A stretch of DNA of 37,344 bases from a virus. Shown here piece after piece: positions 1-37,344 of this stretch. The stretch is taken from positions 1 to 37,344 of the IMG/VR virus record IMGVR_UViG_3300018469_000005. One strand, written 5' to 3'. The notes below the pieces were generated by a model. It made no database searches, was not told where the DNA came from, and saw only the letters and a program-made list of their open reading frames with translations. Within the stretch, counting starts at the first letter, position 1. Each line of letters begins with the position of its first letter. The position numbers and the translations under genes were made by a program.

Positions 1-1034
1 AGATCATGCGCGCGTGGAATTGGCGCGGCCTGAGCGGCGGCGAGTTCGTGCCGGCCGGTATCACCATCACGGCCGAGGGCACGCCGCCTGTGCCCCTCAC
101 CGGCCCGCTGGCCGGCGGTGCCGGGGCGCCCGATATCGAGGATGTCATCACCGCGATGGGCGATGACGAGTACGATTTCATCTGCACGCCGTATACGGAC
201 ACCGCGTCGCTCGATCTGCTGACCGCGGAAATGAACGACGTCACCGGCCGGTGGGCATGGTCGCGCCAGATCTATGGGCATGTGTTCGGCGCCAAGATGG
301 GGACGCCGGGCGACCTGCAGGCGTTCGGCCTGACGCGCAACGACCCGCATACCTCGATCCTCGGCTACGCCGAATCGCCGACGGTAAGCTGGCGCCGCGC
401 CGCCGCGCTCTGCGGGCAGGCCGCAAGCTCGCTGCGCATCGACCCGGCCCGTCCCTTGCAGACGCTCGTCATGGTCGGCGTCCAGCCGCCGGCCCGCGGC
501 AAGCGCTTCAAGCTCGCCGACAACAACACGCTGCTCTACTCGGGCGTGGCGACCGAAATGGAGTCGGGCGGTGCGGCGGCGATCAGCCGGTGCGTCACCA
601 ACTATCGGGTCAACATGTGGAACCAGCCCGACCCGTCGTGGCTCGATGTCCAGACGCCGGCAACGTTGGCCTACATCATCCGCTTCATGCGCCAGCGCAT
701 CATGCAGAAGTTCGGCCGGCATAAGCTCGCCGACGACGGCACGCCGTTCGGCTACGGGCAGGCGATCGTCACGCCGCGCATCATCCGCGCCGAGCTTGTG
801 GCCGCCTACTCCGAACTGATCTCGATGGGCATTGCCGAGAACATGCCGGCCTTCAAGGCCTACCTGATCGTCGAGCGCGACCCCAACGATCCGAACCGCA
901 TCAACGTCCTGCTGCCGCCGGACCTGATCAACCAGCTTCGCATCTTCGCCATGCTGGTCGAGTTCCGCCTGCAGTCTTCGCCGGCTGCCTTCACCGCGGC
1001 GGGAACGCCGGTCGGCGCGCCGGTAGCGGCTTAA
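1..1034 (+). CDS. contractile tail sheath protein, 5' partial (Mu gpL-like)
   Basis: The reading frame is open to the left edge, so the N-terminal part is missing; about 343 residues remain, against roughly 500 in Mu gpL. The protein polymerises around the tail tube and contracts at infection. The visible part has the typical sheath C-terminal half: a DDEYDFICTPYTD segment, then a long stretch of alternating strands, then the C-terminal domain with NYRVNMWNQPDPSWLDVQTP and a helix YIIRFMRQRIMQKFGRHKLADDG, ending in a strand rich in hydrophobic residues (NVLLPPDLINQLRIFAMLVEF). It is followed 18 bases later by the tube gene, the standard order in Mu-like tails. An internal ATG at position 6 lies in frame but is unlikely to be the start. 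Confidence 0.92.
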   Translation, partial: IMRAWNWRGLSGGEFVPAGITITAEGTPPVPLTGPLAGGAGAPDIEDVITAMGDDEYDFICTPYTDTASLDLLTAEMNDVTGRWAWSRQIYGHVFGAKMGTPGDLQAFGLTRNDPHTSILGYAESPTVSWRRAAALCGQAASSLRIDPARPLQTLVMVGVQPPARGKRFKLADNNTLLYSGVATEMESGGAAAISRCVTNYRVNMWNQPDPSWLDVQTPATLAYIIRFMRQRIMQKFGRHKLADDGTPFGYGQAIVTPRIIRAELVAAYSELISMGIAENMPAFKAYLIVERDPNDPNRINVLLPPDLINQLRIFAMLVEFRLQSSPAAFTAAGTPVGAPVAA

Positions 1035-18669: not shown

Positions 18670-19359
18670 TCACTCCTCCTTCGATTGCGCCTCACGGTCG
18701 GCGGCCATCTGTGCCGCGTTGGCGAGCGCCTCGCGCGCGATGCGCGGATCAGCCTGCAGGGTACCGACGGGATAGGCCTTGTCGCCGACCTTGAGCGTCG
18801 TCCGGTAGGCGCCGCCGCCGCTGTCGCTAAAATCGAGTTCGACCATGCCGCCGAGCGCCGCCGCCTTTTCTTCGAGCGTGTGCGTGCGCTCGGTCGGCTG
18901 CGAGTCCATGTACTCGACCCAGCCCTGCCCCTGCGTCGTCGAGGGCGGGAACAGGATGAAGCCGTCGCGCGAATCGTAGCGGATGATCGCCGGTATCCCC
19001 TCGGCCTCAAGCCACGCCCGGAATGACGGCGCGCGGTGCGCGTCCTTGTGCGCCGGATCGACCCAGACCTGCACGACCGGGATATGCGTCGGCGTGCTGC
19101 CGTCGTGCGGCTTCATCGTGATGTAGTCAGGGATCAGATCGATGACGTAGTGCGCGCGGTCGGGCCGCGGCAGATCGGCGGTACTCTCGTCGACCAGCCA
19201 GCGGCAGTTCCACAACGCGCACGACATCGGGCGCCGGGCATAGATCGCGCAGCCCTTGCCGTGCTTCTGGTGCGGACAGCGCGCGAGCGCGGGCTTTTTG
19301 ATTTCTTCGGTGGGGAGGAGACGGCAGCACAGTTGGCAGTCGCCACAGCGGCGCGTCAT
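18670..19359 (-). CDS. YkgJ-like cysteine-cluster protein
   Basis: The start at 19359 overlaps the upstream stop as ATGA; the longer frame to 19437 is arginine-rich shadow. The 229-residue product begins MTRRCGDCQLCCRLLPT and continues CPHQKHGKGCAIYARRPMSCALWNCRWL. The C..C..CC start, followed by C...G.GC.IY..RP..C..W.C, is the YkgJ pattern thought to bind zinc or an iron-sulphur cluster. The C-terminal part is polar with a WVEYMDSQ segment. Its role in a phage is unknown. Confidence 0.8.
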   Translation of the reverse strand: MTRRCGDCQLCCRLLPTEEIKKPALARCPHQKHGKGCAIYARRPMSCALWNCRWLVDESTADLPRPDRAHYVIDLIPDYITMKPHDGSTPTHIPVVQVWVDPAHKDAHRAPSFRAWLEAEGIPAIIRYDSRDGFILFPPSTTQGQGWVEYMDSQPTERTHTLEEKAAALGGMVELDFSDSGGGAYRTTLKVGDKAYPVGTLQADPRIAREALANAAQMAADREAQSKEE

Positions 19360-19544
19360 GTCAGCACGCGCATGAAGGCGACGCCGGCCGCGAATAGCGC
19401 GGCGCCCGCTGTCGCGCCGCCGAGCGCCATCTGCCATGGCGCAAACCGGATTTCCTGCCGCTTACGATCGTGGTCGGCGAGCATCTGGTCGATATGCGCC
19501 AGCTTCTCGCGCACGTCGATCTCGGGAGTCGTCGTGTCTGTCAT
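19356..19544 (-). CDS. small membrane protein, coiled coil plus one TM helix
   Basis: A 62-residue protein: a polar N-terminus with a heptad-like segment (VREKLAHIDQMLADHDRKRQEIR), then a single membrane helix (WQMALGGATAGAALFAAGVAFMRVL). This topology is like XhlA-type phage proteins that assist lysis, but sequence identity cannot be judged by eye. TATAGGAGGGCG provides a strong ribosome binding site. It is the first gene after the promoter candidate at 19603-19576. Confidence 0.7.
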   Translation of the reverse strand: MTDTTTPEIDVREKLAHIDQMLADHDRKRQEIRFAPWQMALGGATAGAALFAAGVAFMRVLT

Positions 19545-19575: not shown

Positions 19576-19603
19576 AGTTTAGGACACAGGCGCGGCTGGT
19601 CAA
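19576..19603 (-). promoter_or_regulatory. sigma-70-like promoter candidate for the 19544-14993 operon
   Basis: On the minus strand, TTGACC (19603-19598; 5 of 6 to consensus) is followed after 16 bases by TAAACT (19581-19576; 4 of 6). A transcript would start about 25-30 bases before the first gene of the minus operon. No competing gene lies here. Confidence 0.5.
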
Positions 19604-19648
19604 AAACTACTGCCGCCCGGTGAACAGGCGGGGAACAGACGCTAGGGG

Positions 19649-19792
19649 GTTTCGGCCCCTAACCGTTAGGGGCCAAAACTAAGTCTATGAAAAATCGACA
19701 TAAAACCCCCGGTGGTAGCTGGGGGCGGGCTTCTACTATCGGTATTTTTCAAAGACTTAGACGGCATAGGGGCCGAAACGTTTTGGCCCCTA
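19649..19792. other. candidate attP: symmetric inverted-repeat array
   Basis: Four copies of TAGGGGCC(A/G)AAAC are arranged as outer pairs: 19649-19661 (reverse), 19667-19679 (forward), 19767-19779 (forward), 19780-19792 (reverse). Inside them lie 17-base arms CTAAGTCT(A/T)TGAAAAAT, at 19679-19695 and inverted at 19744-19760 (16 of 17 identical). They bracket a 48-base centre with no long repeat. The array starts about 100 bases past the integrase stop. Tyrosine-recombinase attP sites have a core flanked by arm-type sites and lie beside int, so this is the best attP candidate; a replication or regulatory site is possible. Confidence 0.55.
19701..19725 (-). terminator. hairpin with T-run on minus strand, after the integrase
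   Basis: Read on the minus strand, CCCCC (19725-19721), a ten-base loop, GGGGG (19710-19706), then TTTTA. This is a weak intrinsic terminator shape for integrase transcripts, and lies in the centre of the attP-like array. Confidence 0.4.
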
Positions 19793-19799
19793 ACACTGT

Positions 19800-19834
19800 G
19801 AGGGGCCGCCGGGTGAACCTCCCGGCAGCCCCTC
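19800..19834. terminator. strong hairpin 63 bases past the integrase stop
   Basis: Arms GAGGGGC / GCCCCTC, a C-A mismatch, then GCCGGG / CCCGGC around a seven-base loop give a 13-pair stem. It lies between int and the attP-like array. A terminator or processing hairpin for integrase mRNA is plausible. Confidence 0.5.
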
Positions 19835-19896
19835 CACCGCGCCCGCCGCGCACACGTCCCGAGGCACACAAGGGACGGCGCGACAGACGCGGTGTG

Positions 19897-21123
19897 TTAG
19901 CCCTTGTCCTTGTCGCGGTCGCGGCGGTGATCACTTAGCCGGACCAGCAGGCCGAGCGCCTGCCGCTGCCTGTTGTAGTCGCGTGTGTACCGCTCCAATT
20001 CCTTCGTCGTGATCCAGCCGAAGATAGCCTTCATCGTGAAGTCGTTGATCACGGCGCCGTAGTTATCGAGCCACCAATGGGTCGCCGACTTACGCATGCC
20101 GTGGGCACTAAGGCCTTCGGGCAGGCCGCACTCCTTCCGCCACTTCTGCACCTTCATCGACATGCTGGCGGCCGAGGTAAACGGCTGGTCCCACTCCGAA
20201 TGGATGAAGCAGAAGCGGTCGGCCGGCAGTTCGTCGATTAGCGCCTGTAGCTCGGGCACCATCGGGATCACGATATCGGGCGGGTCGCCGGCCCGGTACA
20301 TGCTGTCGCTGCCCTTGGTCTGCTTGAAGGTCAGCACCTTGCCGGTCGGCGTCGTCCGGACCATGCCGCGGTTGAGCCGGTGCAGATCGGAGACGCGCGG
20401 CCCGATGATCTGCATCAGCCGTACCGTCCAGTTCTGCTGCCAGTCATCCTTCGAGGCGTGGAGCCACGCCGCGATGTTGTCGTCGGTGAAGGCAAGATGC
20501 CCGCGCCGCTTGCCGTCGCGCCGGGGCGCCATCTTCTCGATGCCGACGCACGGGTTACGCGCGATCTTGCTCACGCCCAGCACGGCCCGAGCCTCGGCGG
20601 CGTCGGGCTCGTTGCCGAGCAGCCAGCCGAACAAAGTGTCGAGCACGCCGAGCCGATGGTTCGCGGCATGTGACTTGTTCCCGCAAGATGCCATCACGCG
20701 AAGGACGGCCTCGCCGCCGTTACCTCCCGGCGCCAGCCAATCGGCCAGCAGGCTATCGCCTAGGACGTGCCGGTTAGGCGCGGGCGCCGGCAGGTTCATG
20801 ACCAGATTGAAATTGCTGCGCTGACCCTTGTGGGTGAGCGGCTTGAACGATCGCCACTTCTCCGATTCGTAGTAGGCGGTGATCGCCGCGCGGAGCGTCT
20901 TGCCTTGCGGCAGCCGCGCCGGCTGGATCGGTCCGGGCGTCGCCCGCGCCGTCGTCTTGTCGGCGAGGATCTGGGCGTACCGCGCGGCGCCTTCGCTTTC
21001 CGCCGCGGCCTTATCCGTCGACTCCAGCGCGTACCGCTGTCCATCGACGAGCAGTTCATAGCGGGGCCGCCCGCTCTGACGATCCTTCAACTTGACGCGA
21101 TAGTCTTTCCTTGGCCGTGCCAT
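19897..21123 (-). CDS. int: tyrosine-type site-specific integrase
   Basis: A 408-residue integrase. The N-terminal part has an arm-type binding start (RVKLKDRQSGRPRYELLVDG), then a SAM-like core-binding region (LRAAITAYYESEKWRSFKPLTHKGQRSNFNLV). The catalytic domain shows the first arginine in GPRVSDLHRL (about residue 243), the beta-hairpin lysine in FKQTKGS, the HxxR motif HGMRKSATHWW (about 340-343), the Trp in the position often held by His (IFGWITTKELE), and the tyrosine nucleophile in ERYTRDY (about 378). All six positions are thus accounted for. It follows an excisionase-like gene by ten bases and a putative attP lies downstream. This makes the phage temperate by integration rather than by transposition as Mu. 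Confidence 0.93.
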   Translation of the reverse strand: MARPRKDYRVKLKDRQSGRPRYELLVDGQRYALESTDKAAAESEGAARYAQILADKTTARATPGPIQPARLPQGKTLRAAITAYYESEKWRSFKPLTHKGQRSNFNLVMNLPAPAPNRHVLGDSLLADWLAPGGNGGEAVLRVMASCGNKSHAANHRLGVLDTLFGWLLGNEPDAAEARAVLGVSKIARNPCVGIEKMAPRRDGKRRGHLAFTDDNIAAWLHASKDDWQQNWTVRLMQIIGPRVSDLHRLNRGMVRTTPTGKVLTFKQTKGSDSMYRAGDPPDIVIPMVPELQALIDELPADRFCFIHSEWDQPFTSAASMSMKVQKWRKECGLPEGLSAHGMRKSATHWWLDNYGAVINDFTMKAIFGWITTKELERYTRDYNRQRQALGLLVRLSDHRRDRDKDKG

Positions 21124-21410: not shown

Positions 21411-21653
21411 TCAAATCCGGTTTTCCCGGTGCTTGAGCCGGGGCTTCTGGGCCGGCCGCTCCAGCGAGTCGATGTAGCGGCGTACCTCGGCGCGCTTGAT
21501 CAGCGTCCGCTGGCCGACCTGTATCGTCTTGAGGTACGGCCGGTGCTTGTGCCACGAGCTACGGCTGATCGCGAGCAGGCCGCAGAACTCGGGGATCGTC
21601 AGATACTCGGGCGTCGGTCCACGGTCCGGCGCCCTACCTACGCGACGCGGCAT
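21411..21653 (-). CDS. second MerR/AlpA-like helix-turn-helix protein
   Basis: The start at 21653 gives 80 residues; the longer frame is a shadow of the upstream gene. PEYLTIPEFCGLLAISRSSWHKHRPYLKTIQVGQRTLIKRAEVRRYIDSLE shows the helix-turn-helix plus wing of AlpA/excisionase proteins, with a basic proline-rich tail. Two such proteins precede int; one may regulate transcription while the other acts in excision. It starts 20 bases before the end of the upstream gene. The 52 bases between its stop and the next start hold no gene. Confidence 0.75.
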   Translation of the reverse strand: MPRRVGRAPDRGPTPEYLTIPEFCGLLAISRSSWHKHRPYLKTIQVGQRTLIKRAEVRRYIDSLERPAQKPRLKHRENRI

Positions 21654-21897
21654 GGTCGGGCTCCTCCAACTCGGCTTTGAAGCTGAGTGCCTGACAGGCT
21701 TCGACGGCGAGGCGCAGGACGTGGAACGGTCCGGCGCGCATGATGGGGCCAAGCTCGTCGTACTCGATGACGGCGTAGCGCGGCCGGCCCGCTTCCTGCT
21801 CGCGCTTGGAATCGGGCACGCCACGATCAAGGACGGCGAAGCGCCCTTCGCGAAATACCTCCATCGCTTTCTCCCATCGCATGGCGCCCTCCGTCAC
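21634..21897 (-). CDS. hypothetical protein (87 aa)
   Basis: TEGAMRWEKAMEVFREGRFAVLDRGVPDSKREQEAGRPRYAVIEYDELGPIMRAGPFHVLRLAVEACQALSFKAELEEPDHAASRR. Alternating strand and helix; I do not recognise it. It overlaps the upstream gene as ATGA, and the DNA-binding gene downstream by 20 bases. Confidence 0.62.
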   Translation of the reverse strand: MTEGAMRWEKAMEVFREGRFAVLDRGVPDSKREQEAGRPRYAVIEYDELGPIMRAGPFHVLRLAVEACQALSFKAELEEPDHAASRR

Positions 21898-34416: not shown

Positions 34417-34950
34417 TCAGACGTTCACCAGCGTCGAGGCTTCGCTGTATTTGTGATCGCCCTTCGTCATCATTTCGAGGAATTCGGCGCGCGTGAAGTC
34501 GGATAGACGGAAGACTTCCTCGGGCCGCATGCCGAGTTGCTTGCCGATCTCGGGCACCGTCTTCCCGTTATCCATCAGGCGCTTGACGATCGCCTTCATC
34601 GGCCCGAGTTGGTGGACGCCGCGCGCCCGGTTATGCGTGATCGTGCCGTAGACGTTGGCGTCATCATCGGCGTGCTCGACGACAGCGATCGGCACCATGC
34701 CGCCGAGCCGCGATAGCAACGGCTCGATGCCCGAGACCATCCAGCGGTGATAGCCGTCGATGATCACCATGTCGGGCCGGACCACGATGGGCATGGTCCA
34801 GCCGTTGGTCATGATCGACTGCGTGAGCAGCTTTAGGTTCTCGGGCAGGACGGCGTTCGGGTTGTAGTCATTCGGCCGCAGTTGATCGCGCTGGACCAAA
34901 CGCACGTTCGTCACCGGCCGGAGAAGGTCGATCGACGGACTGCTTGTCAT
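34417..34950 (-). CDS. ParB/Srx-like protein with helix-turn-helix (IbrB-like)
   Basis: The start at 34950 has GGGAG seven bases upstream, better than the ATG at 34980. The 177-residue product has an N-terminal ParB/sulfiredoxin-like domain: LVQRDQLRPNDYNPNAVLPENLKLLTQSIMTNGWTMPIVVRPDMVIIDGYHRWMVS, with GYHRW (66-70) at the position of the nucleotide-binding GERR box. THNRARGVHQLGPM (105-118) matches the following ParB box. Residues 130-150 (KTVPEIGKQLGMRPEEVFRLS) form a helix-turn-helix. E. coli IbrB has the same form and is paired with the PP-loop protein IbrA, as here. The gene overlaps the PP-loop gene by 83 bases. Confidence 0.82.
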   Translation of the reverse strand: MTSSPSIDLLRPVTNVRLVQRDQLRPNDYNPNAVLPENLKLLTQSIMTNGWTMPIVVRPDMVIIDGYHRWMVSGIEPLLSRLGGMVPIAVVEHADDDANVYGTITHNRARGVHQLGPMKAIVKRLMDNGKTVPEIGKQLGMRPEEVFRLSDFTRAEFLEMMTKGDHKYSEASTLVNV

Positions 34951-36049
34951 AGCGGACTCCCATCTTGTTGGAGAGCGCACGGAGCGACCGCTTCTTCGGG
35001 TCGCCGGCGACGAGGATCTGGTACATGTCGCGGTAGTCGACTTCGAGCATCGACGTGCCGGCCTTGATCATTTCCCGCAGGCACTCGCGCGCAAGCTGGC
35101 GCTGCGACTTGTTGGTGAAGTGCGCCGGGATGTCGGCGAACATCGCGTGTACCGCGGCCTTGTAGTTGACCGCCGTCCCGCCCTGCCCTTCGAGGACGCG
35201 CCGCGTCCGGCTACGGCGCCGGAACATTTCGGAGTGGAAGTAGAGCGAGACGAGGTAGGCGTTGGGCTCGCGCTTAAGGATAGCCAGCATCAGCCCGGGA
35301 TAGTACCGCTCGATGTCGGCGAGGTTGCGCGCGGTGTCGATCGAGAAGAACTGCGATATGCGCAACTGCTGCCCGCCGTCGATTGCGTACAGATGGAGAT
35401 AGGCGTCGGGGATCTCGACGGCGTGGTCTCGGAGGTAGAGCCAGACATCGTGGTCGCGCCAGTCATAGATCGGCTGGACGGTGTTGCACTGTTCCAGCTT
35501 GAGGTCGCCCCGGCGGCGCTGCGCGAAGGCTAGCCGGCGCTGCACCGATTCATTGATGCGCACGCCCGTCATGTTGAGCCCGTTGGAGAGCCGCGGCAGG
35601 AAGGCCTGATAGTTGTCCTTGCGCGGCTTGAGCAGCGGGTGGCTGCGGATCGCGAACGGCGGCGGGCGCCGTATCCAAACGTCCTCGCGGGTATGGTCCC
35701 AGCAGAAAAACGACTCGTCGTTCTCCAGCATGTTGAGGCACGAGTAGTGCCGGACCTCTAGGCAGTACCAATCGAATTTGGCGCCGGCCATCAGGAACAT
35801 ATCGCGCCATTGCCGGACGACGCGCTCGACGCACGGGAAGATCGCTTCCTCGTCGATGAAGATGACCGTAAGCTGGTGCAGGTCGATCGCGCCCTGTTGC
35901 CCCAACTCGAGCGTGAGGTGGGCGAGGGTCAGCGAATCCTTACCCCCGGAGAATGACATGTAGACCGGGAGCCCGTTGCCGAAGATCGAGCGGATGCGCA
36001 GGCGCGCCGCGGTGACGACATCCATGCCCAGCTTGCGCTCGACCATCAT
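34868..36049 (-). CDS. PAPS-reductase-like PP-loop ATPase (IbrA-like)
   Basis: The start ATG at 36049 overlaps the ParB-like stop as ATGA; the longer frame to 36079 overlaps that gene further. The 393-residue product has the PP-loop SGGKDS (residues 34-39) in VYMSFSGGKDSLTLAHLTLELG, then LTVIFIDEEAIFPCVERVVRQW, DWYCLEVRHYSCLNMLENDESFFCWDH, and the PAPS-reductase element VQPIYDWRDHDVWLYLRDHAVEIP. It activates substrates as adenylates, by family. The C-terminal 130 residues (IERYYPGLMLAILKREPNAYLVSLYF ...) are specific to the IbrA/phage subgroup. The substrate is unknown; sulphur or nucleotide chemistry is a guess from the fold. Confidence 0.86.
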   Translation of the reverse strand: MMVERKLGMDVVTAARLRIRSIFGNGLPVYMSFSGGKDSLTLAHLTLELGQQGAIDLHQLTVIFIDEEAIFPCVERVVRQWRDMFLMAGAKFDWYCLEVRHYSCLNMLENDESFFCWDHTREDVWIRRPPPFAIRSHPLLKPRKDNYQAFLPRLSNGLNMTGVRINESVQRRLAFAQRRRGDLKLEQCNTVQPIYDWRDHDVWLYLRDHAVEIPDAYLHLYAIDGGQQLRISQFFSIDTARNLADIERYYPGLMLAILKREPNAYLVSLYFHSEMFRRRSRTRRVLEGQGGTAVNYKAAVHAMFADIPAHFTNKSQRQLARECLREMIKAGTSMLEVDYRDMYQILVAGDPKKRSLRALSNKMGVRYDKQSVDRPSPAGDERAFGPARSTAAE

Positions 36050-36633
36050 AGCGTGAACTCCCCGCGGCAGTGCGGGCACGTCACGATCCGCGGCGCCGCC
36101 CCGTTCGCCGCGTGCGCGCCGTTGGTCCCCGCCCCGTTCGGCGCCGGCTGCGTCGAGCCCGCCGGGATCTGCCGGCCCTGCGCCGCGGCGATCTCCTCGG
36201 GCGATAGCCGGCCGTACTCGGTCGTATAGTTCTCGGTCAGTTGATCGACATTGCCGATCAGGCTTTTCAGCAGGCTCTCGTCGAAGCCCGGCACGTCGTA
36301 GTCGCTAAGGCTGCCGAGTACCGACTTGATCGCGTCGTAGTCGTCGACCCCCATCTGAAAAATCTTGTTGTCCGAGAGGATCAGCTTGGACTTGTCGGTC
36401 GGCGACAGGCCGGCCATCCGGATCGCCTGTACCTCCGTCCACTCCAGCTTTGTCGCCGCCTCGACCAGCCCGTTGCCGGCGAGCACCATGCCGTCCTCGT
36501 CGATGACGATGGGACGCGTCTGCCCGAACATCATGAGCGCGCGGCAGAACTCCGTGATCTGTGCCTCGGGGTGACGGCGGGTGTTGCGCGGCGGCGGGCG
36601 CAGGTCGGCGATGGCGACGGGCTCGATCTGCAT
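36046..36633 (-). CDS. ParB-like protein with C-terminal zinc knuckle
   Basis: The 195-residue product starts QIEPVAIADLRPPPRNTRRHPEAQITEFCRALMMFGQTRPIVIDEDGMVLAGNGLVEAATKLEW, a ParB N-terminal domain with the GNGLVEAA box, continued by LSPTDKSKLILSDNKIF. This is the subgroup usually linked to DNA methyltransferases or phage terminase regions, where the 'L.DNK' box follows. The middle is acidic, the linker is Pro/Ala/Gly-rich, and the end has CPHC (186-189), a single zinc knuckle. It lies between cupin and PP-loop genes with four-base overlap downstream. Confidence 0.8.
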   Translation of the reverse strand: MQIEPVAIADLRPPPRNTRRHPEAQITEFCRALMMFGQTRPIVIDEDGMVLAGNGLVEAATKLEWTEVQAIRMAGLSPTDKSKLILSDNKIFQMGVDDYDAIKSVLGSLSDYDVPGFDESLLKSLIGNVDQLTENYTTEYGRLSPEEIAAAQGRQIPAGSTQPAPNGAGTNGAHAANGAAPRIVTCPHCRGEFTL

Positions 36634-36636
36634 GGC

Positions 36637-37263
36637 CTAGGCTCCTACCGCAAGCGTTGCCTCCAGCATTTGATGGCGCTCGTCGGTCGGCCCCACCACG
36701 CTGTCGGGATGAAAGGCGATGATGTCCATGGTCTCGGCCTCGGTGGTGAAGCCGTGGATGGCGCCGGTCGGGATGACGAACACGGAGCCAGGTTCGAGCG
36801 GGAAGTCGCCGGTCGGCGCGCGGCAGATCCCGCGGCCGCTGGCGATCAGCCCGATGCGTACGCTCGGGTGAGTGTGCAGCGTCTGGACGATACCGGGCGG
36901 GAAGTGCAGGTGGTTAAGGCAGGGATCGCCCTGCTTGATCGGCCCGATCAGGCCGGTGTCCGTGCAGCCGTCGATGTAGCGTAGGCGCCCGGTCGCTTCG
37001 AGTGGTCCGCCGGCCATCCGAATCCCGCGGTAGTGCTTGGCGTGGACGAGTAGCGCGCGCGAGTCCTTCGAGGCCCGTAGGTTCGCGCGGCCGACGATCG
37101 CGGCGTACATGTGCGGCCATAGCCGGATGCCGTCGAAGCTAACCGTTCCTCTGGATACAGCGACGTAGGTCGTCGCCTCGCCGGTCTCGCCCGGCCCGTC
37201 CTGCCACCACGCGCGTACGTCACGATCCTCATAGCCGTCTTCAAGCAGGCCGACCTTAAGCAT
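36637..37263 (-). CDS. cupin-domain protein
   Basis: The start at 37263 has AAAGGAG about 11 bases upstream; an earlier ATG at 37314 is less likely. The 208-residue product has an N-terminal half with no recognisable motif (residues 1-110) and a cupin at 115-195. This has NHLHFPPGIVQTLHTHPSVRIGLIASGRG and PLEPGSVFVIPTGAIHGF, giving metal-binding candidates H130, H132 and H170. Cupins of this form are small-molecule binding or oxygenase-like folds. It precedes the ParB-like gene by three bases and begins the minus cassette. The 80 bases upstream hold only a TCGCTAGCGA palindrome. Confidence 0.76.
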   Translation of the reverse strand: MLKVGLLEDGYEDRDVRAWWQDGPGETGEATTYVAVSRGTVSFDGIRLWPHMYAAIVGRANLRASKDSRALLVHAKHYRGIRMAGGPLEATGRLRYIDGCTDTGLIGPIKQGDPCLNHLHFPPGIVQTLHTHPSVRIGLIASGRGICRAPTGDFPLEPGSVFVIPTGAIHGFTTEAETMDIIAFHPDSVVGPTDERHQMLEATLAVGA

Positions 37264-37344
37264 AGCGGGCAGGCTCCTTTGGGCTGGTCTACGGTCCGCG
37301 AATCTCGCGTTCAATCGCTAGCGAAAAAACGTGCCTCTCGCTCC

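Follow-up and report, generated by a model that had tools for sequence, protein, structure and literature searches.

The window, i.e., the whole stretch of viral DNA analysed here, is an entire IMG/VR record (37,344 bases) that lacks end repeats. Its start falls inside a tail sheath gene (window 1-1034, cut on the N-terminal side; profile match 189-493 of 493), so the contig is a fragment of a contractile-tailed phage. No portal, capsid or terminase was recognized among ten proteins scanned from the window, and the genome is probably incomplete. On the minus strand at 34417-37314, a weak ParB_N match, a phosphoadenosine-phosphosulfate-reductase-like protein (PHROG 2302, 1e-73), an unknown ORF and a cupin protein form a cluster that looks like a cargo or DNA-modification cassette. 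The integrase gene lies mid-contig with phage genes on either side, as expected of a non-integrated genome, and ARAGORN detected no tRNA in the window.

The integrase (P0001, 408 aa; 19897..21123, minus strand) matches PHROG 1 with an E value of 6e-14 and has the full tyrosine recombinase catalytic set (R, K, HxxR, H/W, Y), with R243, K270, H341, R344, W370 and Y379 invariant in 12 sequences. In an AlphaFold2 model (mean pLDDT 77.8, pTM 0.46) a beta-beta-beta-alpha domain at residues 9-58 (strands 9-14, 21-26 and 29-32, helix 38-58) is followed by a low-confidence linker (58-73), a helical domain and the catalytic domain. The top PDB match of the model is lambda Int (1z1b, E 5e-8, 401 columns), and the TM scores of 0.44-0.50 and large rmsd can be expected for multidomain proteins in different poses. 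At the level of prediction only, the enzyme would possess a separate N-terminal arm-binding domain. A small HTH protein is encoded at 21411..21830 on the minus strand; it scores 20.9 bits for HTH_17, short of the Pfam cut-off of 27, and is, from its position, a candidate excisionase (Xis).

The array of repeats described in the earlier note lies just past the integrase stop; 104 nt separate its last site from the end of the stop at 19897 (about 100 bases in that note). It comprises four exact 13-mers, each unique to the locus and all placed and oriented as described (reverse-forward ... forward-reverse): site 1, TAGGGGCCGAAAC, at 19649..19661 (minus strand); site 2, TAGGGGCCAAAAC, at 19667..19679 (plus); site 3, TAGGGGCCGAAAC, at 19767..19779 (plus); and site 4, TAGGGGCCAAAAC, which abuts site 3, at 19780..19792 (minus). 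The motif TAGGGGCCRAAAC occurs exactly four times in the window, and no other match with up to two mismatches exists in the 37,344 bases. Sites 2 and 4 form a 15/15 inverted pair and sites 2 and 1 a near-perfect palindrome, and the spacers within the pairs formed by neighbouring sites are 5 and 0 bp. Between the pairs, two 17-nt inverted arms (19679-19695 and 19744-19760, 94% complementary) enclose a 48-nt centre, again as described. The mirror regularity proposed for the array held for the orientations of the sites; the array as a whole is not an inverted repeat. The GC content of the inner part (0.40-0.60 in 40-nt windows) is below that of its surroundings, the window mean being 0.67. Such repetition is rare by chance: four or more copies of an 11-mer arose in none of 60 shuffles of the 440-nt flank, and four or more copies of any 13-mer (with at most one mismatch) in 2 of 907 control chunks of 341 nt, taken from elsewhere in the window and from the initial 3.5 kb of 80 viral loci. 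Database searches with the att region gave no match in Rfam and, by blastn against phages, weak matches only (best E 0.03), and the exact two-site pattern was absent from the viral contigs searched.

Scans with the window integrase alone returned zero relatives in genome contigs or viral contigs; alignment with distant relatives gave 80 viral loci at 21-35% identity. Many of these contigs stop at the integrase stop, which fits a prophage end just behind the gene but may instead reflect how the source cuts its contigs. Inspection by eye of the sequence past the integrase showed a tRNA gene in integrated relatives and a tRNA 3' end in free ones, with inverted repeats (e.g., TGTGTCCCAC/GTGGGACACA) and IHF-like sequences around it. 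Because the DNA behind the relatives' integrases follows this rule, we predicted that the centre of the window holds a tRNA 3' end, and (A)AGC-CCGCC-CCCAGCT-A-CCA was recorded before the tRNA scan. The pattern TTCRANYCCGCCCCCAGCTA matched at least 117 stretches; CCA directly follows the match in 76 of the 80 loci analysed out of these, and ARAGORN assigned tRNA-Met(CAT) in all 20 loci tested, which might alternatively be Ile2 tRNA genes, with the same gene anticodon. The longest match to tRNA-Met is 20 nt in the att region versus 13 nt anywhere else in the window. The core, CCGCCCCCAGCTACCA (19713..19728, minus strand), sits within the 48-base centre and equals the last 16 nt of tRNA-Met(CAT) including CCA, an assignment supported by the tRNA genes, by the free phage L278 and by the relatives' junctions; with some genomes the identity reaches 19732 (20 nt).

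The tRNA-Met(CAT) genes from the scan lie in Caulobacteraceae and Reyranella. In 12 genomes with such a gene, the 19-mer (up to two mismatches) occurs at 14 places, nine of them exact, with at most one exact copy per genome. In 65 of 75 genomes of the Reyranella massiliensis family the tRNA-Met 3' end was found, 62 reading TTCAAGTCC (identical to attP over 16 nt) and three TTCGAGCCC (identical over 19 nt); that most Reyranella tRNA-Met genes diverge from attP just outside the 16 nt counts against the assignment. Integrase matches occur in 23 of the 75 genomes, eight at 45-62% identity, and from these relatives the phage probably infects Reyranella-like bacteria (Reyranellaceae). No integrated copy carrying the att DNA of this phage was found in the 75 genomes. 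Caulobacteraceae were also considered as hosts, since their tRNA-Met fits (in some over 20 nt), but were rejected as their integrases are distant: 48 of 390 genomes gave a match, none better than E 2e-13. In a class-wide genome sample, 0 of 385 genomes matched at E <= 1e-30. Among distant Caulobacteraceae relatives (L217-L246), a tRNA gene, mostly tRNA-Ser or tRNA-Arg, lies close to the integrase in 25 of 30 loci.

In the Reyranella-family genomes, integrases 45-52% identical to that of the window sit at tRNA-Met. Among integrases whose target can be seen, the closest ones (52-62% identity) are at tRNA-Phe and not tRNA-Met, which counts against a tRNA-Met target; they account for four of the eight loci (L247, L249, L252, L254). 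Three further loci lie at tRNA-Met: one in G458 (L250), 1.8 kb beyond the integrase; one in G418 (L253), with remnants of more than one element; and one in G433 (L251), where ARAGORN missed the tRNA because the contig start cuts it. At L248 no target is visible. A search for the core 16-mer in these eight genomes found 12 places in seven of them: four attL (G433:C359, G458:C3, G418:C464 and, at the contig start, G460:C308), three attR (G433:C324, G418:C777, G460:C90), four whole tRNA-Met genes without an element behind them, which look empty (G404, G450, G458:C16, G460:C156), and one whole gene with other DNA and an IHF-like sequence behind it (G448). The attR of G433 is not on the 49.7-kb contig that carries its attL. 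Two tandem junctions, the inner core degraded, lie beside tRNA-Met in G418 (L272; G418:C464, 560-3925), so this gene is a repeated target in G418.

Two of the genomes with attL or attR, G458 and G460, also hold an empty attB, presumably because occupied and empty sites from mixed strains were combined in one assembly (G460: C90, C156, C308; G458: C3, C16). The attB and attR of G460 are identical at 104 of 104 positions right of the core and at none to the left, the attB and attL of G458 at 123 of 123 positions to the left and at none to the right, and attL and attR of G433 have only the core in common. As the identities break there, the exchanged segment is CCGCCCCCAGCTACCA, window 19713-19728 on the minus strand, and the attB, attL and attR of the relatives share exactly these 16 nt of the attP core. 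The attP proposed in the earlier note is therefore supported with corrections, since the relatives' attB, attL and attR join at these positions, within the array and inside the 19600-19900 interval in which that note had required the core to lie. The same result largely refutes the alternative offered alongside it, a large protein-bound regulatory structure, and likewise a replication structure, unconnected with integration: dense symmetric repeats and locally low GC would suit such a structure, but an exact 16-nt tRNA core common to the relatives' attB, attL and attR makes it extremely improbable.

We then compared the surroundings of the core. A reading of the 17-base arms as core-type recombinase arms was rejected, the arms being 48 nt apart and the relatives' crossover falling between the counterpart arms, and the arms instead hold two IHF-like sites flanking the core. 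Relative to WATCAANNNNTTR, which we take to be the IHF consensus, TTTCATAGACTTA in the first arm (19680..19692, minus strand) has two mismatches and lies 20 nt from the core, and TTTCAAAGACTTA in the second (19747..19759, plus strand) has one mismatch and lies 18 nt away. An IHF scan of the window alone gave two matches versus 3.5 expected, which is not above chance. Across nine sequences (the window, L278, four attL with offset 20 and three attR with offset 18) the best IHF-like site within 45 nt lies 18 nt left of the core in 5/5 and 20 nt right in 6/6 cases; IHF-like sites between core and arm sites are thus placed at a conserved spacing in all nine. Behind the integrase, exact WATCAANNNNTTR occurs in 8 of 46 wider relatives (all those with at least 300 nt there) versus 0.35 expected from shuffles, and in 0 of 46 inside the integrase gene.

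The free phage L278, with an integrase 46% identical to that of the window, has a core identical at 19/19 positions between flanks that agree, ungapped, at 39/110 and 39/111 positions (near 35%). Its TAAGTCTTTGAAA element is identical to that of the window and at the same distance, and its arm repeats, AATGCCGNTTT, have their own sequence; the 44.6-kb record contains three exact matches, none of them away from the att site. The next gene of the window (18670-19437) has a homologue (44%) on the far side of the L278 attP. Relative to the core, the integrase gene lies towards the tRNA 5' side in the window and L278 and towards the 3' side in G433. These sequence comparisons identify the core as the 3' end of tRNA-Met and show that close relatives recombine exactly at the 16 nt and that the IHF-like sites keep a conserved spacing.

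Between the array and the integrase stop there is a GC-rich hairpin (19800..19834, minus strand; 14-nt arms, 93% complementary), conserved around GGGAGGTTCACCC in L278; the tRNA-Met locus L251 has a similar hairpin with a T run behind the integrase. The hairpin is probably the int transcription terminator and separate from the array. Its presence after the int stop, together with a minus strand that folds far better than shuffles (z -8.2), could suggest that the inverted repeats act mainly as RNA, as an int-transcript terminator with 3' hairpins in a retroregulation-like manner. We regard this as very unlikely: the hairpin stands apart as its own element, no RNA role is needed for the tRNA core or the fixed IHF-like spacing, and relatives carry the same elements at both prophage ends, only one of which adjoins int.

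The four exact 13-mers lie on both sides of the core, two per side, and they are best read as arm-type sites of the integrase, a role suggested by the relatives, with binding by the integrase presumed. In the tRNA sense the site order is F-R / core / R-F in the window versus F-F / R-F in the attL/attR relatives; as the arm order differs, mirror symmetry is not a family rule. In the wider integrase family (L007, L041, L012, L029, L069, L072) other arm motifs, e.g., GTGGGACACA, lie in inverted pairs behind int, and L007 has the order R-F / core / F-R. The region could also be attP with the 13-mers serving a second protein, either Xis/RDF or an int repressor, and the gene for the small HTH protein does adjoin int. 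Such a division of labour appears unlikely, however, as like repeats occur to either side of the core in L278 and in the relatives' attL/attR, the repeat sequence shifts from one integrase clade to another, and the modelled integrase has a separate N-terminal domain with lambda Int as its top match.

Altogether, we place the attP of a temperate, contractile-tailed phage at 19649-19792 with high confidence, with a tRNA-Met core, IHF-like sites and arm-type sites. Read along the minus strand in the tRNA sense, starting from the side of int, the order is two putative arm-type sites, an IHF-like site, the core, an oppositely oriented IHF-like site and two further putative arm-type sites. The N-terminal domain of the integrase would bind the four TAGGGGCCRAAAC sites and its C-terminal part the core, while IHF would bend the DNA in between such that arm sites and core are bridged. 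Recombination between attP and an attB at the tRNA-Met 3' end would then leave a complete tRNA, whose last 16 nt are restored by the identical stretch of attP. A lambda-like mechanism is most likely, since the components of lambda attP recur in the window in unchanged order.

Lambda Int is the top fold match, and a heterobivalent integrase is predicted for the window from the model. Lambda attB lies between gal and bio, whereas the core of the window is a tRNA-Met 3' end, and the window differs further in that each side carries a tight inverted pair of arm sites, the pairs being in mirror order. The pairs mirror each other around two oppositely oriented IHF-like sites, and it is tempting to speculate, although we consider it doubtful, that this is a symmetric attP variant with one tight palindromic arm-site pair per arm, in which an N-domain dimer reads each pair as a unit and the arms are nearly equivalent. 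Equally tentatively, direction might then be set mainly by DNA-bending proteins and Xis, unlike in lambda with its unequal arms. In a study of lambda (eLife 2016;5:e14313, PMC4880445), Int is described as linking arm-type sites to core-type sites across DNA that IHF bends; as in the window, IHF sites and arm-type sites flank the core on both sides of lambda attP (P arm - core - P' arm), and the array of about 145 bp in all compares with a 240-bp lambda att complex.

An attP in a tRNA 3' end is a well-known kind of element, of which the window is a clear and tidy example. The attP cores of mycobacteriophage Ms6 (tRNA-Ala T-loop; PMC1762012) and Sinorhizobium prophages (PMC11476347) are likewise reported to reproduce a tRNA gene 3' end, the window differing in target tRNA, integrase clade and arm sequences. 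The tRNA-Met prophages of G433, G458, G418 and G460 share with the window the 16-nt core, the IHF-like spacing and GGGCC in the arm sites, whereas their arm sites are CGAGGGCCAC in the order F-F / R-F. Our literature search found no paper on integration sites of Reyranella phages, although such papers may exist. What was first a pattern noticed by eye is now mapped as an attachment site, which predicts a target gene and points to Reyranellaceae as the likely host family of an otherwise hostless viral contig. The att/int pair is compact, and its anatomy (a core, IHF-like sites 18 and 20 nt from it, and pairs of arm sites) provides a rule by which attP can be sought in related alphaproteobacterial phages.
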